From Oligoflexia bacterium (GTDB lineage: Bacteria > Bdellovibrionota_G > JANQFH01): a DNA stretch of 50,777 nucleotides. This document shows positions 23,207 to 41,010 of the stretch, piece after piece. Location: contig JANQFH010000048.1 in NCBI GenBank assembly GCA_028277945.1, forward strand, positions 1 to 50,777, given 5' to 3'. A program made the position numbers and the translations under genes. Position 1 is the stretch's first letter. The number at the start of each line of letters is the position of its first letter. Under the pieces are notes generated by a model. That model saw only the letters and a list, made by a program, of their open reading frames with translations, searched no databases and was not told the origin of the DNA.

Positions 23207-23234
23207 TACAATCACTACAATATCCTGCAGCAAC

Positions 23235-23520
23235 TTTGTAAATTCCTTCTGTCTTTAACGTCACCTCTATATGGCGTGTCCAACCAGTCTGAGGCGGAAT
23301 AAAGCGCAGGAGGCCGGAGGCCGACGAGCCATCCGCCGAAGGCTTGGTTGGACACGCCCGCAGAGGTGAGTTTAAATGAAATGACTTTTAAGTTTTGTTG
23401 CACACGCTCTGACATTAGCGATGGAACGACAACCTTCGAGAAATGGCTCGGCTCATTCCATTCGCCTGCGCTTTATTTTCTCTCAGGTTGTCGTTCCATC
23501 GCTAATGTAGGTGTGAGTGT
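23235..23520. repeat. Compound hairpin repeat, locus 1 (units A1 and B1)
   Basis: Unit A1 (23261-23369) has interrupted arms, TCACCTCT + GGCGTGTCCAACCA at 23261-23286 pairing with TGGTTGGACACGCC + AGAGGTGA at 23345-23369, around a 58-base loop. After exactly 42 bases comes unit B1, with perfect 24-base arms at 23412-23435 and 23485-23508 around a 49-base loop. The A1 and B1 loops are related to each other in opposite orientation (both contain AATAAAGCGCAGG and GAGCCAT). The unit fills most of the gap between the RHH-like gene and purM; no gene is seen in it. Confidence 0.9.
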
Positions 23521-23576
23521 CGCAAAAATAAAACCATTATCTTTAACTCTGGCAAAACTATGGGCGGTACACGACT

Positions 23577-24602
23577 CTAGAGGAGTATGCGCGCGCGCGG
23601 CTCTTTGCTACCTTTTGTGGCATCAACGACCGAACCGATAACAACTCCTTCACCGTCTAATAGCTCTAAAAGGCGCTGCTCATCCGCTGGATCACAGACA
23701 AAGACAAAGCCAACGCCCATATTGAAGACACGCAACATCTCCTGCAAATCAACGTTGCCCTGTTTCTGCAGCCAGGCAAACAACTCAGGAACCTGCCAAC
23801 TGCCAAAACGGATCTGCGCCTCAAGAGTATCAGGAATGATTCTGGAAATATTACCAGCAATGCCACCACCGGTAATGTGAGCCATGCCTCTAATCGCAAG
23901 CTGCCGACAAACCTTGGTAACGACCGGGGCATAGATTCGCGTTGGCCGCAACAGTGCCTCGCTGTAGGTTGCGACCTCTGCACTGCTACACGTCTTAACA
24001 ATAGCGCGAACTAGAGTATAGCCGTTGCTGTGAATACCATGAGACGGTAGGGCTACCACAGCGTCGCCTGCTCGAATGGCACTCCCATCGACCAGGCGTT
24101 GTCGTGGTACAGCACCAAGACAAAAGCCAGCTAGGTCAAACTCACCGGCTACATACATATCGGGCATTTGCGCGGTCTCGCCACCTACCAAGGCACAGCC
24201 ACTCTGACGACAACCATCGACCATACCGGCAACAAGACTATCAAGAACTTCATTTGGCAAGCTGGAAAAGGCGACGTAATCGAGAAAACAGAGCGGTTCG
24301 GCACCCACCGTGATGACATCATTGACATTCATCGCCACCAGATCTACTCCTAACCCCGCATATTTCTCATGTTCGATAGCGAGCTTGATCTTCGTACCAA
24401 CACCGTCGCTCGACATCACTAAAAGCGCATCTTCAAGGCCCTCGCGTTTGAGGTCAAACAGCCCGGCAAATCCACCGGGCAAGGGTACGCAGCCTTTGCG
24501 AAAGGTCTGCGGTAACAGCCGTTTAAAATCTTCCGTCAGCCTCTCAGCCCGCTGGAGCTGCACGCCCGCTTCAGTATAGGTATGTCGCTTGACTCCGCCC
24601 AT
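23577..24602 (-). CDS. purM: Phosphoribosylformylglycinamidine cyclo-ligase
   Basis: PurM closes the imidazole ring to give AIR in purine synthesis. Motifs are 'TYTEAGVQLQRAERLTEDFKRLLPQTFRKG', 'SSDGVGTKIKLAIEHEKYAGLGVDLVAMNVNDVITVGAEPLCFLDYVA', 'GGETAQMPDMY', 'GDAVVALPSHGIHSNGYTLVR' and 'HITGGGIAGNISRIIP'. I chose the ATG at 24602 (MGGVKRHTYTEAG), since homologs start close to this motif; the 17 codons upstream would read into the divergent gene's leader. Length of about 341 residues is typical. Confidence 0.93.
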   Translation of the reverse strand: MGGVKRHTYTEAGVQLQRAERLTEDFKRLLPQTFRKGCVPLPGGFAGLFDLKREGLEDALLVMSSDGVGTKIKLAIEHEKYAGLGVDLVAMNVNDVITVGAEPLCFLDYVAFSSLPNEVLDSLVAGMVDGCRQSGCALVGGETAQMPDMYVAGEFDLAGFCLGAVPRQRLVDGSAIRAGDAVVALPSHGIHSNGYTLVRAIVKTCSSAEVATYSEALLRPTRIYAPVVTKVCRQLAIRGMAHITGGGIAGNISRIIPDTLEAQIRFGSWQVPELFAWLQKQGNVDLQEMLRVFNMGVGFVFVCDPADEQRLLELLDGEGVVIGSVVDATKGSKEPRARILL

Positions 24603-24684
24603 TGCTGACGCACAGCTTATGCCATTCACAACGATTGTGGCAAGCCTTTCCAATGCGGTTGAGTTCGGCTATCATGCACTCCTG

Positions 24685-25359
24685 ATGAAAGCACTCAAAA
24701 ACGCTCTGCGCAAATACCTTGTCGCTGGGGTCCTTGTGCTCGCCCCTGTGGCTTTAACCGTCTGGCTGCTGCAAATCATGATCGGTGCAGCGGATGCGCT
24801 ACTAGAAATTAAGAACGGCCGTTTCTTTTATTTCGTGCCGGCTGACTATCACCCTGAGAGATTGCTCGGAGTGCGCATCCCAGGAATGGGCGTGGTCGCC
24901 TCTATCCTCCTGTTGCTCATGGTTGGAGTGGTGGCCCATAACTTCTTCGGTCGCAAGCTCATCCATCTCGGTGAGAGGATCGTCAAGCGCATACCCTTTG
25001 TACGTACCATTTACAATGCCGCCAAACAGCTATTGGAAACCGTGCTGCACCAAAATAGCCGTAACTTTAAAGATGTTGTCCTCTACGAATATCCAAGAAA
25101 GGGAATCTATACTATCGCCTTTATTTCTGGAGAGAGCATTGAGCTAAACAAGAATGGCGAGATACAACGTCTTGTCGGCCTGTTTTTGCCGACAACGCCC
25201 AATCCTACTTCAGGTTATTACATGTTAGTCCCAGAAAAGGATGTTAGCCGCCTCGATATCTCCCCAGAAGAGGCATTTAAATTGATCATCAGCTTTGGCA
25301 TTGTCGTTCCGGAAAAGCTACGCCATTTAGTTTTTCGCAGCAAAGCAGGCAATCCCTAA
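24685..25359 (+). CDS. DUF502 family membrane protein
   Basis: The 224-residue protein has two N-terminal membrane helices ('AGVLVLAPVALTVWLLQIMIGA' and 'MGVVASILLLLMVGVVAHNFFG') and a cytoplasmic domain with 'ERIVKRIPFVRTIYNAAKQLLETV' and 'FLPTTPNPTSGYYMLVPEKDV', the hallmarks of DUF502. Function is not established. The ATG at 24685 (MKALKNALRKY) is the natural start; 32 extra codons upstream would overlap purM. The 3' end overlaps the convergent maf gene by 33 bases. Confidence 0.9.
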   Translation: MKALKNALRKYLVAGVLVLAPVALTVWLLQIMIGAADALLEIKNGRFFYFVPADYHPERLLGVRIPGMGVVASILLLLMVGVVAHNFFGRKLIHLGERIVKRIPFVRTIYNAAKQLLETVLHQNSRNFKDVVLYEYPRKGIYTIAFISGESIELNKNGEIQRLVGLFLPTTPNPTSGYYMLVPEKDVSRLDISPEEAFKLIISFGIVVPEKLRHLVFRSKAGNP

Positions 25360-25929
25360 GCGAACCAGATCGAACGCGGTCGACAGCAACGGTAGACCGA
25401 TAACATTAGAATGCGAGCCGTCTACGCTTGCCACCAACCTGCCGCCCTGTTGTTGCAAGCCGTAGCCACCTGCCTTGTCCATGGGCTCACCGCTCTCCAC
25501 ATAGTCGGCAATCTGCACATCAGTGAGGCGATGAAAGGTGACATAGGAAGTGACATGCCGACGCAGACGAGGATTGGCTTCACCCCCATAACCGAGGCAG
25601 TAAGCAGTAATGACTTCGTGGGTGTGTCCACTTAAGAACCGCAACATCTCTTTGGCCTCATCAGCACTGACTGGTTTGCCTAAAACCCGACCCTGACAGC
25701 CCACCAACGTATCTGCGGTCAGCAGCCAGCCTGTAACCCGCCTGCTAGCGGCAGTAAACTTCGTATAGGCATTGGACTCAGCCAATTCTCGCAATCCGCC
25801 ACCTTGCAACCGCTCCTTCCCGTAACTCCTTGGGATTACTTGCGGTTCAATACCAATGGAGCGCAACAGCCAGAGCCGCCTTGGCGAGCGAGAAGCTAAG
25901 GTCAGCGGTTGGGTGCATTTCAACATCAT
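25327..25929 (-). CDS. maf: Maf-like nucleotide pyrophosphatase
   Basis: Maf proteins hydrolyse dTTP, UTP or modified nucleotides. The 200 residues show 'LASRSPRRLWLLRSIGIEP', 'LTADTLVGCQGRVLGKPVSADEAKEMLRFLSGHTHEVITAY', 'YVESGEPMDKAGGYGLQQQGG' and 'GSHSNVIGLPL'. The first motif with the SxR signature and the catalytic Asp region are intact. The ATG lies near 25929 with an in-frame alternative three bases in. It converges with the DUF502 gene. Confidence 0.92.
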   Translation of the reverse strand: MMLKCTQPLTLASRSPRRLWLLRSIGIEPQVIPRSYGKERLQGGGLRELAESNAYTKFTAASRRVTGWLLTADTLVGCQGRVLGKPVSADEAKEMLRFLSGHTHEVITAYCLGYGGEANPRLRRHVTSYVTFHRLTDVQIADYVESGEPMDKAGGYGLQQQGGRLVASVDGSHSNVIGLPLLSTAFDLVRLGIACFAAKN

Positions 25930-25997
25930 AACTTATTGAGATTACAAACAAATCATGTTAACTTGAAAACAGCTAGAGATAATATCAGGAAGCTGTG

Positions 25998-27041
25998 ATG
26001 GACGCACAAAATCTCATCAAAGAACTCAAAAAGACGGTGGATGAACTGCAGATCTTTAACGAGCTGGGTAAGACGCTTACCTCAACGCTTGAGATCAAGG
26101 AGGTGCTGAAGATCGTCATGCAGAAGGTCAGTGAATTGCTGCATCCAACCTCATGGGCACTCTTTCTGGTCGATGACATGGAAAAGGAGTTGATCGCCGA
26201 GATACTGGTTGGCGAACACTTTCCCTTTGTGAAAGACAACAAGGTCACTATGGGGCTTGGTTTTGTCGGCTGGGTTGCTCAGGAGAAAAAACCTATCTTG
26301 ATTCCCGATCCAACGGTAAGAAAGGTCTATTCGCCGGCCGTTGAAGTGCTCGCCTCAGAGCCACACCGTTCTTGTCTCTGTGTCCCACTGATATCGAAAG
26401 AAAAACTTCTTGGTGTGATGAAGCTAGTCAATGACCAAACCGAAGACACCCTGTTTACCGAAGAGGATTTGGCGATTCTTGCTACCTTTGCTGATTATGC
26501 TGCCATCGCCATAGAAAATGCTCGCAACTTCACACGTGTTCAGGAATTGACGATCACTGATGATCTTACCGGTCTCTACAACTCTCGCTATCTCCATAAG
26601 TTGATTCAAACGGAACTAAGACGGTCACACCGCTATCACAAAAATTTTTCACTCATCTTCATCGATTTGGATCATTTCAAATCAATCAATGATAACTATA
26701 ATCATTTGCGCGGCAGCAAACTGCTCGCAGAAATAGCTGCGGTAATCAAAAGCAAACTACGCACGGTCGACGTGGCAGCCAGATACGGTGGCGATGAGTT
26801 TGTCATCATCCTACCTGAGACCCCTAAAGAGATGGCTATTCAGGTTGCCGAGAGAATCCGCATGGCGATCTGTCAGCACGCCTTTCTCACCGCCGACAAC
26901 CTCAACGTAAAACTCACTGGAAGTTTTGGTGTCTCCTCTTTCCCTACAGACGCGGGCACCAAAGATGAGCTCATTCGTTTGGCTGACGAGGCTATGTATC
27001 GCGTCAAGCACTCTACTAGAAACAATGTCGCGGCTGCTTGA
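25998..27041 (+). CDS. GAF-GGDEF diguanylate cyclase
   Basis: A short coiled-coil start ('LIKELKKTVDELQIFNELGKTLTSTLEIKEVLKIVM') leads into a GAF sensory domain (about residues 30-175). A GGDEF domain follows after 'ELTITDDLTGLYNSRYL'. The active site reads 'ARYGGDEFVIILP' near residue 265, and an RTVD inhibitory I-site lies five residues before it. The substrate-binding stretch 'NDNYNHLRGSKLLAE' lacks the usual Gly-His/Gly-Asp pattern but keeps its spacing. It should make cyclic-di-GMP in response to a cytoplasmic signal. AGGA lies before the ATG at 25998; a GTG three bases upstream is also possible. Confidence 0.92.
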   Translation: MDAQNLIKELKKTVDELQIFNELGKTLTSTLEIKEVLKIVMQKVSELLHPTSWALFLVDDMEKELIAEILVGEHFPFVKDNKVTMGLGFVGWVAQEKKPILIPDPTVRKVYSPAVEVLASEPHRSCLCVPLISKEKLLGVMKLVNDQTEDTLFTEEDLAILATFADYAAIAIENARNFTRVQELTITDDLTGLYNSRYLHKLIQTELRRSHRYHKNFSLIFIDLDHFKSINDNYNHLRGSKLLAEIAAVIKSKLRTVDVAARYGGDEFVIILPETPKEMAIQVAERIRMAICQHAFLTADNLNVKLTGSFGVSSFPTDAGTKDELIRLADEAMYRVKHSTRNNVAAA

Positions 27042-27705
27042 GTTCTTTACTCCTGCTTCGGAAGTTCAGGTGATCATCTACGACATGGACGGACTCCTTG
27101 TGGATACCGAGCCGATTGCCGCTCAGGCAGCACGCGCAACACTAGCGCAATTTGACTTACAAATTACAGCAGAAGACGAGGAGCGCTTTATCGGCAAGGC
27201 ATGGCCAGCCATTCTGGCGATCATCCGTGAACGCAACCGTATACCCTTTGACAGTGACGTTTTACGAGAGACTATCAAGAAGCGTTATGAGGAATTGATT
27301 GAAAGAGATCTACCCGTTCTGCCAGGCGCCGTAGAGAGCGTGAAAACCATGGGCAATCACTATCCCCTTGGCCTGGTCTCTGGCAGCACTCGGGCGCAAA
27401 TTGACAGGGTGTTGACCAAACTGGGTATAGGCAATGCTTTCTCTGCCAAGTTCGGCATTGACGACTACGGAGTTAGTAAGCCAGCCCCTGATGGTTTTCT
27501 GCGCTGCGCGCAAAACCTCGGCGTCCTGCCGCAAGCCTGTCTGGTCCTCGAGGACTCCCAACCAGGGGTAGCCGCGGCTAAAGCAGCTGGTATGAAGGTC
27601 ATTGGCGTGGCAGCGGGAAATCACAGTGGTCAGGACCTCTCAGCAGCAGATGCTCAGATTGCCACACTGACTGAACTAATCGATCTGCTGACTGACCTAC
27701 AGTGA
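27025..27705 (+). CDS. HAD-superfamily phosphatase (beta-phosphoglucomutase-like)
   Basis: All four HAD motifs are present: 'IIYDMDGLLVDTEP' (nucleophile DxD), 'LVSGSTR', the Lys in 'VSKPAPDGF', and 'LVLEDSQPGVAAAKAAGMKVI'. The cap is of the small helical type seen in beta-phosphoglucomutase and sugar-phosphate phosphatases. The first ATG consistent with the family is at 27025 (MSRLLEFF), which overlaps the cyclase gene by 17 bases; longer frames upstream would only read antisense-like residues within it. The substrate is probably a phosphorylated sugar. Confidence 0.9.
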   Translation: MSRLLEFFTPASEVQVIIYDMDGLLVDTEPIAAQAARATLAQFDLQITAEDEERFIGKAWPAILAIIRERNRIPFDSDVLRETIKKRYEELIERDLPVLPGAVESVKTMGNHYPLGLVSGSTRAQIDRVLTKLGIGNAFSAKFGIDDYGVSKPAPDGFLRCAQNLGVLPQACLVLEDSQPGVAAAKAAGMKVIGVAAGNHSGQDLSAADAQIATLTELIDLLTDLQ

Positions 27706-27711
27706 CGACTC

Positions 27712-27834
27712 TAATGTGTCGTCAAACGCAGGGGAAAGAGGAAGTCACAGAGAACAAAGAACAACAACTGCAATAGTAACAGCAGTAGTAGACCGGCATG
27801 TCTTTTAAAAAATGCTGCAATCTCACTATACATA
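27712..27834 (-). CDS. Possible small membrane protein (40 aa)
   Basis: An open frame of 40 codons encodes one strong hydrophobic stretch ('AGLLLLLLLQLLFFVLCDFLF') behind a basic 'FFKRH' segment. It follows the single-TM 112-residue gene by 37 bases on the same strand. No clear ribosome binding site is present, so the call is tentative. Confidence 0.35.
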
Positions 27835-27871
27835 GCTGAGTGTTCGTTTACTTTACAAAAAGGCGGCGAAG

Positions 27872-28210
27872 TTAAAAAGAGTTTTTCAGTAGGAAGCTGT
27901 AGTCCTCTTCAAGGCGTCGCTGGAACTGTTGATCACGCCGTGCGTAGCGAAGATGATCAGTGGCAAAGAGAGCAAGTTCATCGATATCTTGGATACGCTC
28001 AGGAAGCGTATGAAACTGTGTGGCTGTAGCGCGCTGCCGACCCTGTAGATCCTCAAAACTGTAGGTAGCCTCCGGTAGTGGCATTTGCTTGAGACTCTCT
28101 TGCATCTGCAGGTAGGTACCAATGAGATAGCCCCACAGCAACACCGTTACCAACATCAAGCTGTAGGTAAGGCTGCGGCGCCAAAGCATGGTGTGTGGCC
28201 TCTGTTTCAT
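27872..28210 (-). CDS. Single-TM hypothetical protein (112 aa)
   Basis: An N-terminal membrane helix ('SLTYSLMLVTVLLWGYLIGTYL', near residues 13-34) is followed by a soluble, charged domain of about 75 residues ('LPERIQDIDELALFATDHLRYARRDQQFQRRLEEDYSFLL'). I do not recognise the family. It could be bitopic or a signal-anchored periplasmic protein. No ribosome binding site stands out; a second ATG lies at residue 8. It may be co-transcribed with a possible 40-residue membrane protein downstream. Confidence 0.65.
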   Translation of the reverse strand: MKQRPHTMLWRRSLTYSLMLVTVLLWGYLIGTYLQMQESLKQMPLPEATYSFEDLQGRQRATATQFHTLPERIQDIDELALFATDHLRYARRDQQFQRRLEEDYSFLLKNSF

Positions 28211-28394
28211 GCATGGCTAAATTGCATGCACTGTGCCAGAAGACTTCTAAAAATAGTAAAATAATTTCAAATAGTTATATTTCTATAGCAACCGCCCAGG
28301 ACAAACCAACGGGACCTGTGTACCCCAAAAGTGCGGCACCCTTGCCGATAGTACGCACGAACCAGCCTCGCTTTCCGCTGTAACGCTTTCGTGG

Positions 28395-28400
28395 TATAAG
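28395..28400 (+). promoter_or_regulatory. Probable -10 box of the tRNA-Ala gene
   Basis: TATAAG lies 18 bases before the tRNA 5' end and is followed by a GC-rich stretch (CGCCCGCC), as in stringently controlled tRNA promoters. The -35 region (about 28372-28377) is weak. Confidence 0.4.
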
Positions 28401-28418
28401 ACGCCCGCCAAAGCTTAC

Positions 28419-28491
28419 GGGGGCGTAGCTCAGATGGGAGAGCGCGGCGTTCGCAATGCCGAGGTCGAGGGTTCGATCCCCTTCGCCTCCA
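28419..28491 (+). tRNA. tRNA-Ala, anticodon CGC
   Basis: The 73-base gene has acceptor arms GGGGGCG and CGCCTCC (one G-U pair) with discriminator A. The D arm is GCTCAGATGGGAGAGC. Anticodon stem CGGCG/TGCCG holds loop TTCGCAA, giving anticodon CGC. The T loop is TTCGATC. CCA is not encoded. Its 3' end is duplicated 145 bases downstream. Confidence 0.95.
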
Positions 28492-28512
28492 TTTTATGTG
28501 CTCGCCCCACAT
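28472..28512 (+). repeat. Direct repeat copy 1 (tRNA-Ala 3' end plus downstream)
   Basis: Forty-one bases covering the last 20 bases of tRNA-Ala and 21 bases beyond recur at 28617-28657 with one mismatch. The layout looks like an attachment-site duplication or a short tandem duplication. Confidence 0.85.
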
Positions 28513-28544
28513 TGGCTGTTGTAACCTGATGGCCATTGTCGGGG

Positions 28545-28589
28545 CCTCGCTTTCGTGCTCCGGCGAAACAAGTTCGCCTGCGCACGAGG
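28545..28589. repeat. Nested hairpin between the tRNA-Ala repeats
   Basis: Paired segments CCTC/GAGG, GTGC/GCAC and GGCGAA/TTCGCC nest around an ACAAG loop. The 104-base segment between the two direct repeats holds this hairpin and no open frame of note. Confidence 0.5.
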
Positions 28590-28616
28590 TGGTTGATTGG
28601 AAATGTGGACGAATTC

Positions 28617-28657
28617 TTCGATCCCCTTCGCCTCCATTTTATGTGCTCACCCCACAT
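28617..28657 (+). repeat. Direct repeat copy 2 (duplicated tRNA-Ala 3' end)
   Basis: This second copy differs at one base from 28472-28512. It retains only the tRNA 3' part, so it cannot form a tRNA. It lies 18 bases before the promoter of the Phd/ParE-type pair. Confidence 0.85.
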
Positions 28658-28675
28658 CACTCAGAGAGAAAAGAC

Positions 28676-28704
28676 TTGACAATACGTACGCTATTACGTA
28701 CGCT
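28676..28704 (+). promoter_or_regulatory. Promoter and tandem operator of the Phd/ParE pair
   Basis: TTGACA (28676-28681), a 17-base spacer and TACGCT (28699-28704) form a strong promoter. Two direct copies of TACGTACGCT (28683-28692 and 28695-28704), each with a palindromic TACGTA, lie in the spacer and -10 and suit autorepression. The expected transcription start falls at the ATG, so the message is probably leaderless. Confidence 0.65.
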
Positions 28705-28710
28705 TAAGTT

Positions 28711-28983
28711 ATGGCCATTCCAAAAATAAAAACTGCTACGAGTTTTCGCCAGTCGCTTTACGAGACCCTGAAGGACGTCGCCAAGGGCAAGACTTACGTA
28801 GTCACTCAAAAACAGAGTGATCCTGTGGTGCTCATTTCACAAGAGAAATACAATAGAGTTTTGGAGGAACGGGAAGTTCTCAAATCTATCGCAGCAGGGG
28901 TTGCCGATTTAGAGGCAAGGAAGACGTTAACTCACGCTAACGCCCTCTCCCGCCTAAACAAACTGAAGAAAAAGTGGAAATAA
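28711..28983 (+). CDS. Phd/YefM-type antitoxin
   Basis: The 90-residue protein starts with a Phd/YefM DNA-binding domain: 'TATSFRQSLYETLKDVAKGKTYVVTQKQSDPVVLISQEKYNRVLEE'. A charged C-terminal tail follows that likely wraps the toxin. Such antitoxins neutralise a RelE/ParE toxin and repress their own promoter. No Shine-Dalgarno sequence precedes the ATG, consistent with a leaderless transcript. The gene overlaps the toxin gene by ten bases. Confidence 0.88.
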   Translation: MAIPKIKTATSFRQSLYETLKDVAKGKTYVVTQKQSDPVVLISQEKYNRVLEEREVLKSIAAGVADLEARKTLTHANALSRLNKLKKKWK

Positions 28984-29258
28984 TTTGGTCCAAGTGGGCG
29001 TTGGATCGCATTGAAGAAATTGTCCAATACATTGCTAACGACTCTCCTTCAAGAGCTACCAAATTTATTGATTCGCTCGTGGCTTCTGTTGATCGGCTTA
29101 GCGACTTTCCTCATTCGGGCTCCGTCGTTCCTGAAAACACCGCCTTCCGCCAAGTTGTTTTTCACCATTACCGCGTGATATATCGTGTAACAGACAAGTT
29201 CGTAGAGATAGTCACCGTAATCTCACCTGGTCTGTTATCCGAGAAAATACTTAAATAA
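28974..29258 (+). CDS. RelE/ParE-family toxin
   Basis: The 94-residue protein fits the ParE/RelE fold: 'WSKWALDRIEEIVQYIANDSPSRATKFIDSLVASVDRLSDFPHSGSVVPE', then 'FRQVVFHHYRVIYRVTDKFVEIVTVISP'. The 'YRVIYRV' strand and preceding basic residues match the family core. ParE-like members poison gyrase and RelE-like ones cut mRNA; this one looks nearer ParE but I cannot decide. It overlaps the antitoxin by ten bases, so translation is coupled. Confidence 0.88.
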   Translation: MEIIWSKWALDRIEEIVQYIANDSPSRATKFIDSLVASVDRLSDFPHSGSVVPENTAFRQVVFHHYRVIYRVTDKFVEIVTVISPGLLSEKILK

Positions 29259-29419
29259 GATGAACCGCCTTTGGCGAATTGAACCTTATCCAAATGAGTG
29301 CTTCAGAAGATAAACCTTGCATCATGGCACGGACTCGTTCCTTATGCTGAGGCTTCACTTGCCAGCGACCATCCAAGAGTCTTAGCATACTCACAGCCGT
29401 AGTCCTCAAGGTAACGAGT

Positions 29420-31711
29420 TCACTTTGCCGAGGACTTGCGCTCTTTCTCCAAAACCCTTCTCAAAGCCTCTTCTGCCTGTTCACTACCAAATAGAGAGGC
29501 GCCGGTTTTGATCAGGTCGGCAACCACTTCATTGATTGGGCGTCGAGATTTTCGCTGCCGGTGGTCGCTGATGTCACCAATAAAGGGCCACAACCTGGTA
29601 CGAATGTCATGTGGGAGAACGTGCTCTAGATACTCCAAGGAAAAGCTCTTTAACTTTTTTTCATCAAGAATGATGCCATGAAAGGCAGCACGCACCAAAT
29701 CTGGATCCAACACTAGAGTTAACAGACGAAAGGTGTGTTCTAAGCTGATCTCGCCGCGGAGTCCAACACGGTCGTGCAAGAGATCATCGCTCTCATCGGC
29801 ATCAAGAAGCCTTTGCAACTCCCACACAGGACGACCACGGTTGACTTCCGCACGCAGGGCCTCGTAAACAAGCTGATGCCAATCGCGCTGAGATAGAGGA
29901 CGGTTATCACGGCGCCGTCGTACCAGGGCAATGGCAGCGCGATAGCGTATCTCAAACCGTCTGGCATGAAGAGCGTCCAAGAGGGCATCATCGACCTCTG
30001 CGCCACCGATCTTGGCAAAAATTGCCGGGATCCTTCGACGAATGACAAAATCCGCCTCTTCGTTGATGAGCTGTTCTGTCAGTGGCGTCACCACCATGTC
30101 ACCGAGGTTCTCCAAAATTGCACGCACACGTGGGTAAAGCGCATCTCTTGTCAAAAACCGCACCAAACAGGGTATATGCTCGGGCTCCCAGTCAGTATAG
30201 CTCTCTAGCAGCCTGACAATAGCTGCCATATCGTTACCATGTAGTATGGCGATAACCTCCTGAACCGGAGGATTTTCAATGACTATGGTGGTTGGTTCCT
30301 GTTCTGCCCGCAGTCGCTCCATGTCAACACCGTGCGCTTTTAACTGTTCGGCAATGTCCAAATGAGTAAAGTTCAAACTCATGGTAACAAGACGCCCATC
30401 ACCCAACTTTGCTTTGGCAACAAGCTCTGCTGTGGCCTCCTTACCACGTTTCAACTGCTCACCAAGACTCAGAAAATACTGCTTGCCCATAAGTCGATTG
30501 AGGTAAAGAAAGACAACGGACAACACGCCGACAAAAAACGAGAGCCATCGCGAGGGCAACCCAGCCAAGGTCACCCATAACAAGATCATTACCGCCCCTA
30601 GTCCTTCAGAAAGAGTGTCGACAATGGCGTCAATAAAGGTTTTGGTCTTGCGCCGCAGTGATGACGATAAAGGCACATAACAAAACTCAATAACCGCAAT
30701 GTGTATAGAAGTGCGCAGACTACGATCAGCACCGCGCACCATGGTGGCAACGAGTAGTCCAGGAAGAACTAATAGTAAAGAAGAACCGAGCAGCAGCACC
30801 AGTGGCAATAGTGACAGGCTCACAGCAACTCCAGCAAAGGCTAGAAACCGTGAAGTAATCGTCAATTGCAAAACAAAGGCGATGACTCCAATCCAGCCGT
30901 AAAAGAGACCAAAGAAACTGGTTAATTGGGCTCTTGTTAATAGCGATGCTTGAACGAACTCTTTAAACTGGTAGTCTAAGATCGTGCTGGCAACCGTTGC
31001 TACCATAACAATGCCGGCAATGACACGCAGGTAGGGCTTCTGCCAGATAAGCGCGACACTCTCACGAAACTTCGCGCTACTGCTTGATCCACTACGACTA
31101 TAGTCTGCTGGGGATCGATCCTTGGTTGGTAAAGATCGATGACAGATCCAAGACAAGAACAAAAACAAGAGCAATCCTAGCACTAAGCGATCACTAGAAA
31201 AACGTCCGCTTAGCCACGGCAACGATGTCCCCGCAACTACGGCACCAAGAGCACCACCTGCGCCAATAAAACCAAAGAGCCTCTTGGCTTCGCGCAAGAC
31301 AAAGTAATCTGCCGTCACCAGCCAAAAACCAGAAGTGATGAGTAGCACACCTAGTGCGGTCCAAAGGTAAAAGAGAACAATGGCGACTTCAGAGTGTCTG
31401 ACAAATAACCCGAGCAACGTGATACCAACGGCAACGATGGGAAGGAGCCTATTGAGTACAACGCCAGCACTGTATCGCGACAACAAATAGATAAACTGCA
31501 TCACCGTAGGAATTGCTAAAGCGGCTACTGTTGTCGTCATATACGGCAAGGTTCTCACATCAAAACTGGCAAGGTAGAAGGCCTCACGCAAAGAACGCGA
31601 CAGCACAACAAAGGCAAGAATGCAAAAGGCGCTGGCAAACAAGAGTAAGCCTGGCCTGATTTCATCAGGCCGGATGTTGAGCCAAGCGGCTATTCGATGT
31701 AAAGGCTGCAT
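29420..31711 (-). CDS. NTT-family (ATP/ADP translocase-like) transporter with HEAT-like tail
   Basis: Residues 1-410 hold about 12 membrane segments in the pattern of the nucleotide transporter (NTT) family, including 'LREAFYLASFDVRTLPYMTTT', 'ALGVLLITSGFWLVTADYFVLREAKRLFGFIGAGGALGAV' and 'IRESVALIWQKPYLRVIAGIVM'-like parts. Residues 420-763 form a soluble helical region with HEAT-like units ('LVRFLTRDALYPRVRAILENLGDMVVTPLTEQL'). NTTs exchange ATP for ADP in intracellular parasites, but free-living members of unknown substrate exist. The HEAT tail suggests a regulatory or docking part. A second NTT-like gene lies 3 kb away. Substrate is not known. Confidence 0.8.
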   Translation of the reverse strand: MQPLHRIAAWLNIRPDEIRPGLLLFASAFCILAFVVLSRSLREAFYLASFDVRTLPYMTTTVAALAIPTVMQFIYLLSRYSAGVVLNRLLPIVAVGITLLGLFVRHSEVAIVLFYLWTALGVLLITSGFWLVTADYFVLREAKRLFGFIGAGGALGAVVAGTSLPWLSGRFSSDRLVLGLLLFLFLSWICHRSLPTKDRSPADYSRSGSSSSAKFRESVALIWQKPYLRVIAGIVMVATVASTILDYQFKEFVQASLLTRAQLTSFFGLFYGWIGVIAFVLQLTITSRFLAFAGVAVSLSLLPLVLLLGSSLLLVLPGLLVATMVRGADRSLRTSIHIAVIEFCYVPLSSSLRRKTKTFIDAIVDTLSEGLGAVMILLWVTLAGLPSRWLSFFVGVLSVVFLYLNRLMGKQYFLSLGEQLKRGKEATAELVAKAKLGDGRLVTMSLNFTHLDIAEQLKAHGVDMERLRAEQEPTTIVIENPPVQEVIAILHGNDMAAIVRLLESYTDWEPEHIPCLVRFLTRDALYPRVRAILENLGDMVVTPLTEQLINEEADFVIRRRIPAIFAKIGGAEVDDALLDALHARRFEIRYRAAIALVRRRRDNRPLSQRDWHQLVYEALRAEVNRGRPVWELQRLLDADESDDLLHDRVGLRGEISLEHTFRLLTLVLDPDLVRAAFHGIILDEKKLKSFSLEYLEHVLPHDIRTRLWPFIGDISDHRQRKSRRPINEVVADLIKTGASLFGSEQAEEALRRVLEKERKSSAK

Positions 31712-31741
31712 AGATCTGAGGTATCTTAATAGTCGCTGAAC

Positions 31742-33379: not shown

Positions 33380-33467
33380 GGTTTAGTTTATTCATATTTC
33401 CAACAGCATGGAAAGGACTGCGATATAATATAAGGATGCGCCGTTGACAAAAAGGCACGAATTGATT

Positions 33468-34817
33468 ATGCATTGCGTTATAAACAAAAAAGGACCAAGA
33501 ACCGATTTACAAAGGCTCTGCCTGCAACTCGTGGCAATCGTACTGGTGTGGACCGTCCCAGGCCTGGCTATGGGCGCCGATCCATGCGTGGAACGACGCG
33601 CTGCTATAGACATGGGTTCGGGTATGACCAAGTTGAAGGTCAAGGATGTGCGCCTCGCCATCAAGGGGTGCGATACAGAGACTGAAACCATTGAGGTAGG
33701 GAGTTTCTCCATCACCCTACTGCCTGTTGTCACAGAGGTTCAACTCCCCGAGGGTGCTAAAGATGAGATTGCCGTAAATTACGCTGAGGCCCTGGCGCTG
33801 TCCACGAATAACCCAAAGTCCTTTTCTCCCAAGATCTTGATAAAAGGATGGCAAGCGCTACAGACCCTGAAAGCGATGGCTAAAACATTAGGCGCCGTGT
33901 CGTTGACAGCCGTGGCTACAGCAGCGTTTCGCAAGCTCAGAGATGAGGGAGACAACGCCCAGTCGGAAAAAATACTCGAGCTGATCAACCGACCAGAAGA
34001 GGAAGCCATCACAGCAGCAGATCTAAAGGAGCTGGGATTCAATAGCAAAGATACAGAGACCTTTACGGCAGCAAAAGCAACTATAAAGAGTGGTTTGGGA
34101 ATCACCGCTGAGATCATCGATCAGGAAACAGAGGCGCTCTTTGGTTTTACCCTAGCTGTTGCTAGAAAAAAGCGACAATTAGAAAGATTAGGAAAAGGCT
34201 TTGACCCAACGAACTATGTTGTTTGGGATATTGGCAACTTCGGCATTCAGATAGTTGGTAGCGATAAAGGACAAGAGCTTGGTTTTTTTCTGAGAGACTC
34301 TGGGTCGCAAGTCTTCAAGCAGCAAATTATTGGCCATCAGATTGATACAGGAACTAGGAGCGACGATCGTGGAACACCTAACCCGATGAGTGCTGCTGAC
34401 ATAAAATGGGCCGCCGAGCAGGCAGTAGAAATTGGCGAGGACATAGCAGATTCCGGTATAGACTTTACCAATAAAAGAGTCATTGGCATTGGCGGTGTCC
34501 ATTTTTGGAGTCTACGACTACAAATTGGTAAAAACTACCCTCAGGTTAAAGAAGACAAATACTACCTGCCAGAGTGGTTGGCAAAAACACTAAAGAATAA
34601 AACGAATTGGCAAGATAATCCCAGCAATGAACACTCCCCAACACAAGTCGCAAATCTAGCACTCGTTAACGGAATCCTCGAAGGTCTTAACGCAGCCCTA
34701 GTTCGAAGAAAACCACCAATCGATCCAGTCGAGCAGATTGAAGTCATGAACGTCAACATGGCGGATGCGCTGCTTGCCAACAACGACCTCTCCGCCTGGG
34801 GCGCCAATAACAACTAA
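33468..34817 (+). CDS. Exported Ppx/GppA-like phosphatase-fold protein
   Basis: A signal peptide ('LCLQLVAIVLVWTVPGLAMGA') is followed by a sugar-kinase/actin-like fold typical of Ppx/GppA: 'RRAAIDMGSGMTKLKVKDV', 'AVATAAFRKLRDE', 'LGITAEIIDQETEALFGF', 'YVVWDIGNFGIQIVG' and 'VIGIGGVHFW'. In cytoplasmic Ppx the nucleotide loops read DIGSNS and DIGGGS; here they are DMGSGM and DIGNFG, so binding may be altered or lost. Export is unusual for the family. Start codon choice is uncertain: ATG at 33468 or TTG at 33444. The stop overlaps the convergent NTT gene by four bases. Confidence 0.75.
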   Translation: MHCVINKKGPRTDLQRLCLQLVAIVLVWTVPGLAMGADPCVERRAAIDMGSGMTKLKVKDVRLAIKGCDTETETIEVGSFSITLLPVVTEVQLPEGAKDEIAVNYAEALALSTNNPKSFSPKILIKGWQALQTLKAMAKTLGAVSLTAVATAAFRKLRDEGDNAQSEKILELINRPEEEAITAADLKELGFNSKDTETFTAAKATIKSGLGITAEIIDQETEALFGFTLAVARKKRQLERLGKGFDPTNYVVWDIGNFGIQIVGSDKGQELGFFLRDSGSQVFKQQIIGHQIDTGTRSDDRGTPNPMSAADIKWAAEQAVEIGEDIADSGIDFTNKRVIGIGGVHFWSLRLQIGKNYPQVKEDKYYLPEWLAKTLKNKTNWQDNPSNEHSPTQVANLALVNGILEGLNAALVRRKPPIDPVEQIEVMNVNMADALLANNDLSAWGANNN

Positions 34818-36142
34818 GTCCCGAACTCAGCACTCTTACGCTGATACTGTCTACCTATAGCAACAGCGATCACCAACCAGATCAACACCAGCAGCGCATT
34901 GACCATAGCAAAGTGCATAGTCTGAAACGTAAAGATAGCTGTGCCTAAAGCTACGACACCGGCAGAGAAGACATCGCCAATACGCCAAAAGAGGCTGTCG
35001 GTTACCTGCTTGGCCTTGTACTTCTCTTCTTGGGTGGTTGGTAAAAAGAGCGCGTGTCGTACGGTATTCTGCAGAGAGTAATCTGTAGAGTTCTCAGCAG
35101 TCTTCACCCAACGGATAAAGCCAAGCACCGGAAAGAAGATCAGCAGGCTGTAACTACCGAGAGCGATCAGCGGCAAAAACAGTACGGCGTAACGAATGCC
35201 AATGTATTTGATGATACGCGAGACCAAAAAGAGTTGGATGAGCAGAGTCAGCACATTGACCACGGAAAAGAAGTCCGCATAGAACTTACCAATATACTGG
35301 CCAACATCGATACCCCCTGCGGTACCAGCAGCAACCGCATCTTTAGCGGTCTGGGTGATCAGCCGTCCTAAGATGTACTCGCCATTGGTATTGACCCAGT
35401 TGAGAAACAAAATCAGCAAGGCTATGAGTAAAAGGTAGCGATTGGACTGCAACAGGCGAAAGACACCGCCACCACCGATGGGAACCTCAGCTGCAGTGGA
35501 GCTCGCTGCCCTACCAGGTTGATGTTTGCGTGTATCGACAAACTTCACCACCCAGAGGGAGAGAGCTAGAAAAGCAGCGGCAACAAAGAGCAGCTGGTTG
35601 ACGCCCAGCGGAATAATCAACCAGCTGGTGATCACACTGCCAAAGATTGCTCCTAAGTTTGCGCCTAGCGCAATCAGTGGAAACAGACGCTCGCCCTCCT
35701 CAACGCTGTGGACGTCATTCACAAAGGCCCAGAACTGCGCTATCACCACGACGTTGAAGATGCCAATCCAAACAAAAAAGATAACACCTAAATAAGGGGT
35801 GTGTAGCTGTGCCAACAGATAGAACAGACCAAGACAGAGGATAAAGAAGCTGGTGACAACGTTGATCAGCTTACGCCGTGAATAGCGACTGGCCACTTTG
35901 GCATAAACCGACACACCTCCCAGAAGAATGACAAATTGCACGGCGGCGGCGTAACTTTTGACTTCCGCACCACTGCCGGCAAGAATCAAAGCCTCGCGGA
36001 CGGGTTTCATAATGTAATAAGAGGTGAGCAGCAGGAAAACGCCGATGCTCATCAACAGCGTTGGTGTGGCTTCACCTGCCTTGACTTCGGTAAACAGGCT
36101 AAGAAGGTGTTGCAGAGGCGTACGCGAACGCTCTGAATCCAT
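34814..36142 (-). CDS. NTT-family nucleotide transporter-like protein
   Basis: The 442-residue protein has 11-12 membrane segments. Its motifs fit the NTT family: 'YYIMKPVREALILAG', 'GEATPTLLMSIGVFLLLTS', 'IAQFWAFVNDVHSVEEGERLFPLIALGANLGAIFGS', 'YILGRLITQTAKD' and 'ENSTDYSLQNTVRHALFLPTTQEEKYKAKQVTDSLFWRIGD', the last being very typical. There is no soluble tail, unlike the sister gene. Exchange of nucleotides or phosphate compounds is likely; substrate and direction are not known. It shares the locus with a kinase and an exported Ppx-like protein. Confidence 0.88.
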   Translation of the reverse strand: MDSERSRTPLQHLLSLFTEVKAGEATPTLLMSIGVFLLLTSYYIMKPVREALILAGSGAEVKSYAAAVQFVILLGGVSVYAKVASRYSRRKLINVVTSFFILCLGLFYLLAQLHTPYLGVIFFVWIGIFNVVVIAQFWAFVNDVHSVEEGERLFPLIALGANLGAIFGSVITSWLIIPLGVNQLLFVAAAFLALSLWVVKFVDTRKHQPGRAASSTAAEVPIGGGGVFRLLQSNRYLLLIALLILFLNWVNTNGEYILGRLITQTAKDAVAAGTAGGIDVGQYIGKFYADFFSVVNVLTLLIQLFLVSRIIKYIGIRYAVLFLPLIALGSYSLLIFFPVLGFIRWVKTAENSTDYSLQNTVRHALFLPTTQEEKYKAKQVTDSLFWRIGDVFSAGVVALGTAIFTFQTMHFAMVNALLVLIWLVIAVAIGRQYQRKSAEFGT

Positions 36143-36203
36143 ACCTTAACTATTTATCTTATAAAGATGGGCGAGTAAACAAAAGGTATACAACAAGGAT
36201 TTT

Positions 36204-37013
36204 CTAAAAAGTCTTGAGCCAAGAAAGACCGTAGGTGCCATCTGCCACCAACGGTACAATCATCGTCTCCTTCGGGCCATGAGAGTCGGCATGATTGTGA
36301 CCATGGTGCCAGTGGATCGCGGTAGCAAAGAAGAGCCCAAGACCAGCACCAGCAATGACGTCTGAGGGAAAGTGCGCCTTGAGATCCACTCGTGAGAGGC
36401 CAACCAAACTGGCGGCTGCTATGCTTGGAATACCAACGTACCAGGGGTAGTGGTAGGCAAGCACACCGGCAACGGCAAAGACCGACGAGGTGTGACCTGA
36501 GGGAAAGGAGAGATGGTTGGCTTCGTTGGGACGCATGCGCGTGACCGTGCGTTTCAGTGCATAGGTGGTTATGGTCGTCAACCCAAACGCCTCGACGAGT
36601 TCGGTGGCCGTGTCTCGTGCTTTTTCACCAGCCAGACTCTGCGGCGAGAAAAAACGACTCAGCGTGAAAAAACTACCTACGGTTGCCAGGGGCAACCAAT
36701 TACCGACATCCGAGATCAGTTGCGAGCCGCTCTCGCTTAACGGCAGACGAAAAGAGCCGCTGACATTTTGGTCGCTGTATTCATGCGTCATGTAGGCATT
36801 GGCCGCTGACGTTAGAAGTAGTGACAGTCCTGTGCGATTGAGCTGTGAGGTGTGCGTGTCATAGACACCGCTGACAAAACCGGCTTGAAGATCCTTGAAG
36901 AGAGTGAGTAACGGACTGGAACCATGGGACAGATGTTCATCAGCGGCAGCTGGGCGCGCTAGCATGATGAGGCCGAGGCATAGCAGAAGAATGCTGTGAC
37001 TGTGTGTGCGCAT
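36204..37013 (-). CDS. Exported PAP2-family phosphatase
   Basis: After a signal peptide ('ILLLCLGLIMLARPAAA'), the protein carries the three PAP2 motifs: 'KRTVTRMRPN' (KxxxxxxRP), 'SFPSGHTS' (PSGH) and 'SRVDLKAHFPSDVIAG' (SRxxxxxHxxxD). Several hydrophobic helices place it in a membrane. These enzymes dephosphorylate phosphatidate, undecaprenyl pyrophosphate or related lipids at the envelope. Length of 269 is normal. An unusual His-rich segment ('HWHHGHNHADSHG') follows the last motif. Confidence 0.9.
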   Translation of the reverse strand: MRTHSHSILLLCLGLIMLARPAAADEHLSHGSSPLLTLFKDLQAGFVSGVYDTHTSQLNRTGLSLLLTSAANAYMTHEYSDQNVSGSFRLPLSESGSQLISDVGNWLPLATVGSFFTLSRFFSPQSLAGEKARDTATELVEAFGLTTITTYALKRTVTRMRPNEANHLSFPSGHTSSVFAVAGVLAYHYPWYVGIPSIAAASLVGLSRVDLKAHFPSDVIAGAGLGLFFATAIHWHHGHNHADSHGPKETMIVPLVADGTYGLSWLKTF

Positions 37014-37310
37014 GGAAGAGCTCTGTCTCTCTTGCTTGGGGCGTTTTGAACAAACGCAGGGCGGGAAGATAAGGTGGCTGTCACCGACCTCCGTCCCTAT
37101 TATTACTATACAGACCGTATCTTTGGATGTCTACTATATATAATATAACTATATGTTATTATTATATATTAATATAACAACTTTATAGTAAAACGAAAAC
37201 GGAAACTGAAATTGCGATATTGATGAGAGAGCTGGACCACGTTCAACAGCAAAATAACTTGAAAATTTAGACATTTAGCGGCACTCTGCAAAAGATTTGC
37301 ATCAAAGCCC
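37014..37310. promoter_or_regulatory. AT-rich intergenic region between divergent PAP2 and lipoprotein genes
   Basis: This gap of almost 300 bases has an AT-rich core at about 37131-37192 with the direct repeat TAATATAAC at 37141-37149 and 37170-37178. It likely carries the divergent promoters of the two genes. I cannot choose a single promoter, and see no small gene. Confidence 0.4.
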
Positions 37311-39050
37311 ATGCGCGCCCGCTACAAACAACCCATTGCCCTCATCACGCTTCTACTGCTGACGGCCTGCGCCCCCAGATATGAGCTACGCTATCCACCG
37401 CAACGCTGGCTCGTCGATCAGGACCGCGAACCCATCCAACCCCCTAAAGAGACGGAAGAGACGACAACCTGGGATGCCATCAACCGTCAGGTTGTCTACC
37501 AGGCCGAAAGGCTCGGCAACCTGCCTGAGAAAGCCATGGCGACCGGTGCGCTCGTTGGTTTAGGCAGCAAACAAGAGGCACTCAACGTCAACAACTTTGA
37601 TGAGGTGGCAGATTCCAGTTGGTTTGAAAACCGTGTCGGCCGTCGTCCACTTACGGATGCAGAATACGCTCGAGGTCCAAGAGAGGGACAAGGACCCGAT
37701 GTCGCTGGTACGTGGACGATCCTCAAAGCCAAAACGAGCGGCATCACGCCTGGATTTTTTATCAAGGACTCGCGTGGTGACCTCTACCTAATCAAGTTTG
37801 ACACTCCAGGCTTTTCCGAACTCGCAAGTGGTGTGGAAATTATCGGCACGCTCTTCTTCCACGCCTTTGGCTACCACGTTCCTGAAAACTACATCACCTA
37901 CTTTGACCCGAAAATTCTCACGGTCTCACCTAAAGCAAAGACAAAAGACCGTGTCGGCAGAAAGGTTCCCTTTACCGTCGACTATCTGCAACAGATCATG
38001 AAAAACGTCGAACGCAATGAAGATGGCACAGTCCGTGCTATGGCGAGTAAGTTTCTCGCTGGCAAACCGCTTGGTCCGTTTCCTCTGCGTGGTTTGCGCC
38101 GCGGTGATAGCAACGATCGCATTCCGCATGAACACCGCCGCGAGCTGCGTGGCTACCGCGTCTTCTCCGCCTTCTTAGATCACCGTGATTCGCGCGAGGC
38201 CAATACCCTAGATATGTTCATTGAAACCAGACCCGATGGCAGCGGTTATGTCAAACACCACCTTATTGACTTTGGCACGGTCATGGGCAGCGAAGGTGCC
38301 CGTGGCCCCCGACGCCAACAACACCTCTACAGCTACCTATTTAACTATCCAGAGGTACTTGCCGCCACCATCGCTCTCGGTTTTTATGAGCCCTTTTGGC
38401 AAGAGACCATCCCTATACACAGCAACGCTATTGGGCGGCTTGAGGCAGAGAAGTTTCAGCCGCTCTCCTGGCGACCGAGCTATCCAAACCCAGGTTTCCA
38501 AAACATGACCGATCGCGATGCCTTTTGGGCAACCAAGATTTTGATGAAGATACCGGCTGCAGCCTTTGACACCATCGTTGAGCAAGCGCAGTTTAGCCAC
38601 AGTGAAAACCGTGACTATGTCGTCAACATACTGCTACAGCGACGAGATAAGATAGCACGGTATTGGTTTGATCGGCTCAATCCACTGGATGACTTCAGGT
38701 TGTCGCAGGATGAAAACGGTTACTATCTCAATTTTAACGACTTGGCCATCGATGCGGGCTACTACCGTGCTGAGGATACCCAGTACCAATACGTCCTACG
38801 CACCTTGAAACGGCACCGTTATCCTAAGTCTCCGAAGACTGCTAACACAAAACGCATACCGCTCCATGCAAGCCTAATGGAGAAGGCCCATGAGCAACAA
38901 AAACTCGTGCTGACGTTGAGAACCCTACGTCGCGCAACAGGCAAGTTGAGCCCGGCTGTGGAGATTATTCTCCAAGGTGGCGAGAAACCAACGCTGTTGG
39001 GCATCAAACGGCTCGCCAAACCTGGAGCACAGAGGACGGTACAGAGATAG
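37311..39050 (+). CDS. Lipoprotein with kinase-like motifs upstream of an Omp85-type barrel
   Basis: A lipobox ('LLLLTACAP', Cys20) marks an outer-membrane or periplasmic lipoprotein. Residues 140-330 carry, in order, 'LYLIKFD' (Lys162), a Glu at 176, 'FLDHRDSREANTLDMF' (HRD at 291-293, Asn298) and 'HHLIDFGTVMG' (DFG at 320-322). This is the order of catalytic motifs in protein-kinase-like folds, including atypical HipA/CotH-type enzymes. The HRD-to-DFG distance (about 27 residues) is longer than in Hanks kinases. I cannot name the family, and ATP availability outside the cytoplasm is a problem. The stop codon overlaps the next start (TAGTG). Confidence 0.8.
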   Translation: MRARYKQPIALITLLLLTACAPRYELRYPPQRWLVDQDREPIQPPKETEETTTWDAINRQVVYQAERLGNLPEKAMATGALVGLGSKQEALNVNNFDEVADSSWFENRVGRRPLTDAEYARGPREGQGPDVAGTWTILKAKTSGITPGFFIKDSRGDLYLIKFDTPGFSELASGVEIIGTLFFHAFGYHVPENYITYFDPKILTVSPKAKTKDRVGRKVPFTVDYLQQIMKNVERNEDGTVRAMASKFLAGKPLGPFPLRGLRRGDSNDRIPHEHRRELRGYRVFSAFLDHRDSREANTLDMFIETRPDGSGYVKHHLIDFGTVMGSEGARGPRRQQHLYSYLFNYPEVLAATIALGFYEPFWQETIPIHSNAIGRLEAEKFQPLSWRPSYPNPGFQNMTDRDAFWATKILMKIPAAAFDTIVEQAQFSHSENRDYVVNILLQRRDKIARYWFDRLNPLDDFRLSQDENGYYLNFNDLAIDAGYYRAEDTQYQYVLRTLKRHRYPKSPKTANTKRIPLHASLMEKAHEQQKLVLTLRTLRRATGKLSPAVEIILQGGEKPTLLGIKRLAKPGAQRTVQR

Positions 39051-40342
39051 TGGCGTGTGCCAGCAAAAGAGCGCTTCTCCTGTTGAGCCTGCTGTGGATG
39101 TCGCCAGTCCTCGCCACAGCGCCGGCAGAAGAGGTAGCCAACAAAGAGCCCGAGGTGCAAATACGGCCATCGCCGGACTACCTCCTGAGAAAGAGGCTGT
39201 TGTGGCCGCTCGATCTTCCCGCCTATCTAGTTTACCTAGTAGCCGCGCCTATAGGTGTGACCGCAACCTATATCGAAACCAACGATGTCGTGCCCAAGGT
39301 CGTTGATCTACTTGCCAACGATGCGAGGACCTTTTTTGTTTATCCCAGTGTTCGTGGCGCCTCAGGCAATGGCCTTGGCTATGGCATTGGTCTAATCCAT
39401 AAAGATCTATTCCACCGTCGCTATCTTCTCAACGCCAATGGCTTTGTCTTTGGTTGGAGTGACTCTATGGCCAACCTTCTCTTGGCAAGTCCGCGAGTAC
39501 AGAAAGAAAATGACGTTGCTTTTACAATCAAGGCCAATTGGCTCAAAAATTCGGACGATGACTTTTATGGAATCGGCAATGATAGCCTGCAGAGTAACCT
39601 TGCCGAGTTCAGCATTTACACCATTAGAGCGGGCGGTGATGTGACCTATCGCTTCCTACCCCATCTTAGCATCTCACCACACCTTAACTTTTTGGCTGCT
39701 AAGACAGAACCAAAAACCGGCGGTGATGACCCGAGCGTCGAGGATCTCTTTGCCGCAAGTGATCTCGCTGGCTTTGAGGAAGAGCTTGCCCACCTCGATG
39801 TTGGCGCTACTCTAGCCCACGACACCAGAGACCAACGTGGTGCCCCAGAGAAGGGTGGCCTGCGTCGTTTTACCTACCGTCGCTTTCAAGGCCTTGACCA
39901 AGGAGGGTTTGATTTCAACCAGTATGAAGTGGAGTTACGTCAGTTTTTTCGTCTGTTTAAACCGCGGCGGGTATTGGCATTAAGGAATGCTTGGGTGTTT
40001 CAACACGCAGATGGAGCAGATGCTATTCCCTTCTACCGTTTGGCTCATCTCGATTTTAACCATGTGCTGCGAGGATTCAAACGGGGACGCTTTCGCGATC
40101 AAAACAGCGTTCTCTTCAACGCCGAGTATCGCTACATCATCTGGGACTACATCGATGCCACGCTTTTTGTTGATACCGGTAAGGTCTTTGCTGACATTGA
40201 TGAGTTTGATTTAGATGATTTGCAGTACTCTTATGGTGGTGGCTTGCGTTTTCGCACTAAGAACGACTTTCTTCTACGCTTCCAACTCGGTTATGGCGGC
40301 GAAGACATTGTTGTTTCCTTTAGTTTCACGCAAGCAATTTAG
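39050..40342 (+). CDS. Omp85/BamA-like outer-membrane beta-barrel
   Basis: A signal peptide ('LLLLSLLWMSPVLATAP') precedes a 430-residue protein ending in a beta-barrel of the surface-antigen type. Signatures are 'GYGIGLIHKDLFHRRYLLNANGFVF', 'RGGDVTYRFL'-like strands, 'LRGFKRGRFRDQNSVLFNAEYRYIIW' (the L/VRGF motif of Omp85), and 'FLLRFQLGYGGEDIVVSFSF' at the end. No POTRA repeats are visible; the N-terminus is short. It starts with GTG overlapping the previous stop codon by one base, so it is translated with the kinase-like lipoprotein. It probably inserts or exports that partner's substrate. Confidence 0.85.
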   Translation: MACASKRALLLLSLLWMSPVLATAPAEEVANKEPEVQIRPSPDYLLRKRLLWPLDLPAYLVYLVAAPIGVTATYIETNDVVPKVVDLLANDARTFFVYPSVRGASGNGLGYGIGLIHKDLFHRRYLLNANGFVFGWSDSMANLLLASPRVQKENDVAFTIKANWLKNSDDDFYGIGNDSLQSNLAEFSIYTIRAGGDVTYRFLPHLSISPHLNFLAAKTEPKTGGDDPSVEDLFAASDLAGFEEELAHLDVGATLAHDTRDQRGAPEKGGLRRFTYRRFQGLDQGGFDFNQYEVELRQFFRLFKPRRVLALRNAWVFQHADGADAIPFYRLAHLDFNHVLRGFKRGRFRDQNSVLFNAEYRYIIWDYIDATLFVDTGKVFADIDEFDLDDLQYSYGGGLRFRTKNDFLLRFQLGYGGEDIVVSFSFTQAI

Positions 40343-40360
40343 TACGCTGCCCAAAATTAT

Positions 40361-40560
40361 TTTGTAAATTCTTTCCACGTTTAACGTCACTTCTATAGGA
40401 CGTGCCCAACCAAGCCTTCGGCAAATGGCTCGTCGGCCTCCGGCCTCCTGCGCTTGATTTCGCCTCAGGTTGGTTGGGCACGCCTGCGGAGGTGAAGTTC
40501 AATGAAATGATTTTTAAAAACTGTTGCGCACGCTCTGCTATAGCGATGGCACGGCAACCT
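40361..40560. repeat. Compound hairpin repeat, locus 2 (unit A2 and start of B2)
   Basis: Unit A2 (40387-40495) has the same arms and 58-base loop as A1 at locus 1, but the loop is reversed and matches the reverse complement at 52 of 58 bases. The left flank (TTTGTAAATT, 26 bases before the arm) and the 42-base spacer keep the same orientation as locus 1. The left arm of B2 (40538-40560) then follows. Confidence 0.9.
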
Positions 40561-40720
40561 GAGAGAAAATAAAGCGCAGGCGAGCAGCGAGCGCCTGATG
40601 AACCGTAAGGTGAGGAGGGAAAGCTCGCTCAATGCAATCGCTAGCTAGCGTAGCGATTCTCTTCTATCGAGCCGAGCCATTCGTCGAAGGCTTGGTTGAA
40701 TACGCCTACAGAGGTGACGG
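40561..40720. repeat. Rearranged B2 loop and half unit A3
   Basis: The first 23 bases match the reverse complement of the B1 loop. The sequence then departs and has no right B arm. At 40675-40717 a right half of an A unit appears (GAGCCAT, then TGGTTGAATACGCC and AGAGGTGA), with its loop oriented as at locus 1. A short AATCGCTA/TAGCGATT hairpin lies at 40636-40657. The block is a mosaic. Confidence 0.75.
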
Positions 40721-40784
40721 TCAATGAATTGTAGAAATGTGGTGTGCTGTTCTCATCAACAGCTTTGAAAAGTCTTTGGATTAG

Positions 40785-40967
40785 AGAGGCAGCTGGGTTG
40801 TTTTGCAAGCGAGATGCGGAGCCAGCCGATTTGTTTGGGAGCTCCGTCAAGGGGAGGCCGCGATACCGACCGTAGGGAGGTTAAGCGGAGGGGCCCCCGA
40901 CGGAGCGACCGTTAACAAATCGAGCTGGTGGAGCGCACGAGCGTAGCAAAACAACCCAGCTGCCTCT
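40785..40967. repeat. Long nested hairpin C
   Basis: Perfect 22-base arms at 40785-40806 and 40946-40967 enclose further paired segments: CGATTTGTT/AACAAATCG (40827-40835 and 40914-40922) and GCTCCGTC/GACGGAGC (40841-40848 and 40899-40906). It has the same nested design as units A and B but unrelated sequence. No gene is seen here. Confidence 0.85.
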
Positions 40968-41010
40968 ACAAACCTAAAGATTTTGAAACACATTTATGGA
41001 GAAAACTACG

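Follow-up and report, generated by a model that had tools for sequence, protein, structure and literature searches.

ERIC, YPAL/RU-2 and NEMIS, non-coding repeats that measure one to a few hundred bases and form long hairpins, are classed as MITE-like. Such folding is described for enterobacterial units (PMC2229807, PMC2759123). REP, BIME and REPIN repeats, known together with Y1 transposases (RAYTs), are intergenic and palindromic, occur paired in opposite directions and keep conserved mismatches in their stems (PMC3733652, PMC8266576). REPs measure 20-50 nt, carry a GTAG tag 5′ of the hairpin and, like REPINs, lie mostly downstream of genes that are convergent or co-directional. In TIRtrons a transposase gene sits between terminal inverted repeats (TIRs), and in the species that harbour them the TIRs can form dispersed families (PMC3733652). 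Inverted repeats are also reshaped by replication template switching, which homogenises their arms and inverts their spacers (PMC8604942, PMC8794818). The published spacer inversions are short, involving 2-5 substitutions in yeast coding genes (PMC8604942), and so are the hairpin loops inverted in this way in bacterial rRNA (PMC8794818).

The window analysed here, a stretch of 50,777 nt, is contig 47 of an Oligoflexia genome of 2.86 Mb in 92 contigs, and contains two loci of a repeat family that we regard as a novel variant within the known REP/TIR/MITE class. Its elements are non-coding, REP/MITE-like and intergenic, and each has inverted motifs at its termini that enclose two or three large nested hairpins. 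They share with REPs and REPINs the palindromic units paired in opposite directions, the conserved stem mismatches, the location behind genes (see below) and the presence of a Y1 transposase in the genome, but their nested hairpins measure 100-250 nt and their ends read CTAGT-N4-TGTCCCACAA. Like ERIC, YPAL/RU-2 and NEMIS they form long hairpins, and they differ from these repeats in that each element contains two or three separate nested hairpins, that loops invert and that apical parts are swapped between units. The combination of arm homogenisation and loop inversion is that of quasipalindromes mutated by template switching (PMC8604942, PMC8794818), whereas the loops are about ten times longer here and strongly structured.

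Locus 1 (W1) carries element 1 (23215..23580, + strand, bounded by aligned ends), an A-B doublet between degenerate terminal motifs. Its A unit comprises a left arm of the AL type (CTCTATATGGCGTG, 23260..23285), A loop 1 (23286..23345), in which the conserved core has the minority, reversed orientation, and a right arm of the AR type (CGCCCGCAGAGGTGA, 23346..23369), all annotated on the + strand. The A-to-B spacer (23370..23391, +), which runs in the same direction as at locus 2, leads to the left arm of the B unit (23392..23432, +), the inner part of which (...ACATTAGCGATGG) is the complement of the right arm by conversion, giving a perfect run of 24 bp. The core of B loop 1 follows (23433..23488, − strand), reversed with respect to standard B units, and the unit is closed by a right arm of the BR type (23489..23530, +). 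Element 2, at locus 2 (W2; 40339..40988, +), is made of an A unit, a second unit and a C hairpin. A loop 2 (40412..40471, +) has its core on the minus strand, that is, in the standard orientation. The second unit, taken for a B unit in the first-pass annotation, does have a B left arm, but its right arm is of the A type, and it is hence a B/A chimera, with a core (40557..40690, +) that bears a longer apical insert. The C hairpin (40764..40988) has 43-nt arms and is a dispersed repeat in its own right, found at 8 places and frequently forming a pair with a D hairpin or an A unit.

The first-pass annotation had proposed that the A loop is inverted between the two loci while everything around it keeps its direction. 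Our alignments bear this out. A loop 1 agrees with the reverse complement of A loop 2 at 54/60 positions, versus 37 identities in a direct gapped alignment, and the shuffle control for this match (n=2000) gave a mean of 31 and a maximum of 38. The left flank and arm, on the other hand, match directly (43/52, against 31 in reverse), as does the segment comprising the right arm, the spacer and the B left arm (53/65, against 33 in reverse). A single large inversion can therefore be rejected, and since flanks, arms and spacer are direct and the A loop is reversed, it is the loop alone that was inverted. The start of the B loop is reversed too, as had been noted, its core lying on the minus strand at 23433-23488 and on the plus strand at 40557-40690.

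To place these two loci within the family, element 1 was compared with its own genome by BLAST, which yielded 68 matches, grouped into about 27 fetched loci. The repeat is scattered through the genome in about 30 copies. The family comprises about 27 A/B-type elements together with related C and D hairpins, and about 40 related hairpin units occur in the genome. Loop orientation was scored by comparing the flanks of each core with the consensus arms. The core is reversed relative to AL-AR in the 13 standard A units and has the opposite orientation in three, W1-A, L031-A and L038-A (one further unit is ambiguous). It is forward in the standard B units (about 13) and reversed only in W1-B. Copies elsewhere thus do not share a single orientation: both are found for A as well as for B loops, one of them strongly dominating. 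The inversion is real, but by comparison with about 26 other units the odd copy, in the orientation of both its loops, is locus 1 and not locus 2, as had been supposed. The relatedness of A and B loops is confirmed by the one conserved core common to both, whereas the idea that they always point in opposite directions is false, both loops pointing alike in L031 and L038. Rearranged units are also found, with two right-type arms in each of L033 and L050, loss of the right half in L040, and A/B chimeras in L042, L052 and the second unit of locus 2. C and D hairpins are paired in compound elements of 420-470 bases (L193, L194, L195 and L196), which are a sister family to the A-B elements. An apical insert that contains a nested hairpin of its own (GCGACCGAGCGA...CTCGAGAGC...) lies inside the loops of L039, L040 and L052, and the same insert stands alone beside L033 and L051, which suggests that hairpins have been inserted within hairpins.

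The core shared by A and B units reads CTGAG-N6-ATAAAGCGCAG-apical-CGAGCCAT-N6-CGAAGG, and apical subtypes are common to both kinds of unit. Its stems vary in a compensatory fashion around fixed internal loops, with 96.9% of the cells of the alignment able to pair and double changes in 48 core-stem cells, versus 15 in shuffles. The B arms also co-vary within copies, 17 of their 19 double changes being complementary where 4.2 are expected. Template switching itself generates paired changes (PMC8794818), and covariation alone is therefore no proof that these hairpins work as RNA; more generally, our observations suggest that covariation in repeats can arise by copying. The fixed positions would correspond to tandem G.A mismatches and C(GGA)G triloops, and the fact that nearly every unit has kept these mismatches points either to a recent spread or to selection acting on the folded strand. 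When folded as DNA, the core strand is more stable than its complement (-9.0 vs -7.8 and -13.1 vs -9.2 kcal/mol), but its energies are unexceptional when compared with shuffles and we do not rely on this as a strand preference. A covariance-model search with the core recovered 33 copies in its own genome and 0 in 4 other genomes of the phylum, and our searches of plasmids and of other genomes of the phylum found no copy of the repeat. Membership of a known RNA family was rejected: there was no Rfam match at the gathering score, and the matches obtained with lax thresholds are sub-threshold and due to chance. In viral contigs, a single exact match to the core pattern, in a long phage-type ORF (L219), is not surrounded by a hairpin and was likewise discarded as fortuitous.

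The arms of the reversed units have themselves been altered. In L038-A a reversed loop lies between an unchanged left stem, CCTTCG, and a right stem that is now CGAAGG, the complement of the left one; the outer arm has been converted too. In L031-A it is the left arm that is now the complement of the right one (CTCTGCAG), and in W1-B the left arm (ACATTAG) copies the opposite arm. Judged by eye from the arm alignments at the diagnostic mismatch, conversion has affected 3/4 reversed units and 0/24 standard ones (Fisher p 0.001), a test whose independence is limited by the identical 53-base loops of W1-A and L031-A, which probably derive from one shared flip; the flips that are independent number at least three. 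We propose, with a probability of roughly 60%, that template switching during replication, acting inside each hairpin, inverts the loops in place, and that no genetic switch is involved. In such a process the nascent strand would jump onto the other arm or the other strand of the hairpin, copy the loop backwards, at times rewriting an arm too, and then jump back. The length of DNA turned, about 55-60 bases, counts against this proposal when compared with published template-switch inversions, and so does the longest perfect arm run, in which reversed or palindromised units exceed the others only marginally (p 0.055).

Reciprocal inversion by homologous recombination between the arms, rare and neutral, would give the same reversed loops. 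The case that fits it best is W1-A, a clean inversion in which the AL and AR outer arms are still distinct, and which ordinary recombination explains as well as template switching does; perfect arm runs of 13-24 bp are also present. Yet the arms of A and B units are short for RecA-dependent exchange, and in L038-A, L031-A and W1-B one arm equals the complement of the other, an outcome that a single reciprocal crossover does not yield, while one template switch suffices for each of the three. We consequently regard reciprocal inversion as rather unlikely. The first-pass annotation had gone further and likened the loops to a tiny invertible switch. That they have inverted in place relative to their arms, with the arms as the likely substrate, is supported; the role as a switch is unsupported. 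A phase-variation system, in which an enzyme flips the loops and so alters the expression of neighbouring genes, could account for the occurrence of both orientations in otherwise collinear elements, but one orientation greatly outnumbers the other (13:3 among A units, about 13:1 among B units), only 2/34 elements lie between divergent genes, most being located behind genes, and the arm conversion of three reversed units out of four is not expected from a reciprocal switch. Moreover, element 1 was found to contain neither a promoter-like site, in a scan with a sigma-70-type consensus only, nor a terminator-like one, and no dedicated invertase was identified. Phase variation is hence highly improbable.

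Two further readings start from the core. The same core is found within unrelated A and B arms, and this, together with the shared apical subtypes, the chimeras L042, L052 and the second unit of locus 2, and the two REP-type Y1 transposases of the genome, would fit a mobile single-stranded-DNA cassette put into, and exchanged between, A and B hairpins in either orientation by such a transposase. We hold this to be quite improbable: the stems adjoining the core retain their A or B character, conversion over short homologies accounts for the shuffling, and the inverted repeats around both transposase genes are unlike the core. It is likewise improbable that the core is a conserved single-stranded-DNA structure, with its tandem G.A mismatches and its C(GGA)G triloops, exchanged and inverted as a cassette among the hairpins of a host without SbcCD. 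Were this second reading true, a dedicated process, for example one driven by tyrosine transposases, would be at work, and the elements would represent a new class of nested, ‘hairpin within hairpin’ mobile element. If template switching is responsible, one genome with about 40 units offers a natural record of this process in long hairpins, in which converted arms, inverted loops, chimeras and swapped apical parts are preserved together, and suggests that inversion can affect loops of some 55 bases, far longer than those of the published cases compared.

The ends of the elements are formed by an inverted motif, with consensus CTAGT-N4-TGTCCCACAA followed by ATTTTG, so that the family has the terminal inverted repeats expected of MITEs. 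The motif is decayed in many copies, among them locus 1, and is present in recognisable form at both termini of L037, L047 and L052. Ends carry mostly CTAG or TTAG and in two or three cases GTAG, and a REP-type GTAG tag 5′ of the hairpin is hence not a feature of the family; the CTAG found at both ends may be a target duplication or may belong to the repeat itself. With flanking ORFs picked mechanically, the 34 elements divide into 16 with convergent neighbouring genes, 16 with co-directional ones and 2 with divergent ones. At least one gene is upstream of 32/34 elements, which sit mostly just behind stop codons. Element-facing stop codons at a distance of ≤60 nt are TAG in 23/40 cases, versus 26/85 elsewhere in the same loci (p 0.004), and these TAG codons often lie within CTAGT or TTAGT. 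This excess indicates that genes often take their stop codon from an element end, an example being purM (ORF 23577-24653, minus strand), whose stop codon is inside the right-end CTAG of element 1. The left-end TTAG of element 2 holds the stop codon of an Omp85-family gene.

The genome encodes two Y1 transposases of 216 aa each, both matching PF01797 above the cut-off, for which the best NCBIfam match, REP-associated tyrosine transposase, is below the cut-off of the model. As in TIRtrons (TIRYT), both genes (L191:1414-2135 and L192:1181-1924) are bounded by perfect inverted repeats, which measure 22 and 31 bp; unlike in those systems, the one TIR tested recurs at only a few other places, and both TIRs are unlike the A, B, C and D hairpins. 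The genes are thus flanked by TIRs unrelated to the A/B repeat. One of the inverted repeats of L192 contains the end of an ABC-transporter ATPase-type gene. A scan for the terminal inverted motif of the hairpin elements themselves gave 8 places, with no transposase recognised at the subset inspected. To judge from the structure of the elements, they may possibly have been spread by these two REP-type tyrosine transposases.

In E. coli, long hairpins are cut by a nuclease that includes SbcD. This protein was found in 13/14 control genomes but not in the five genomes of this phylum that were searched, namely the host and 4 relatives, and SbcC gave a single match, to 51 positions at the N-terminus of a protein of 1201 aa that is probably an SMC-type ATPase. 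The minimum stem for SbcCD cleavage is 8-16 bp (PMC3733652), and such long hairpins may be able to persist where SbcCD is lacking, although relatives free of the repeat are also without SbcD. The family adds to the repeats of a phylum that has been sparsely sampled and has yielded no SbcD.

The window also contains a near-perfect direct repeat of 41 bases (28472-28512 and 28617-28657), formed by the 3′ end of a tRNA gene (28419-28491) and its downstream flank, which recur 145 bases on, and this duplication is like that of an attachment site.
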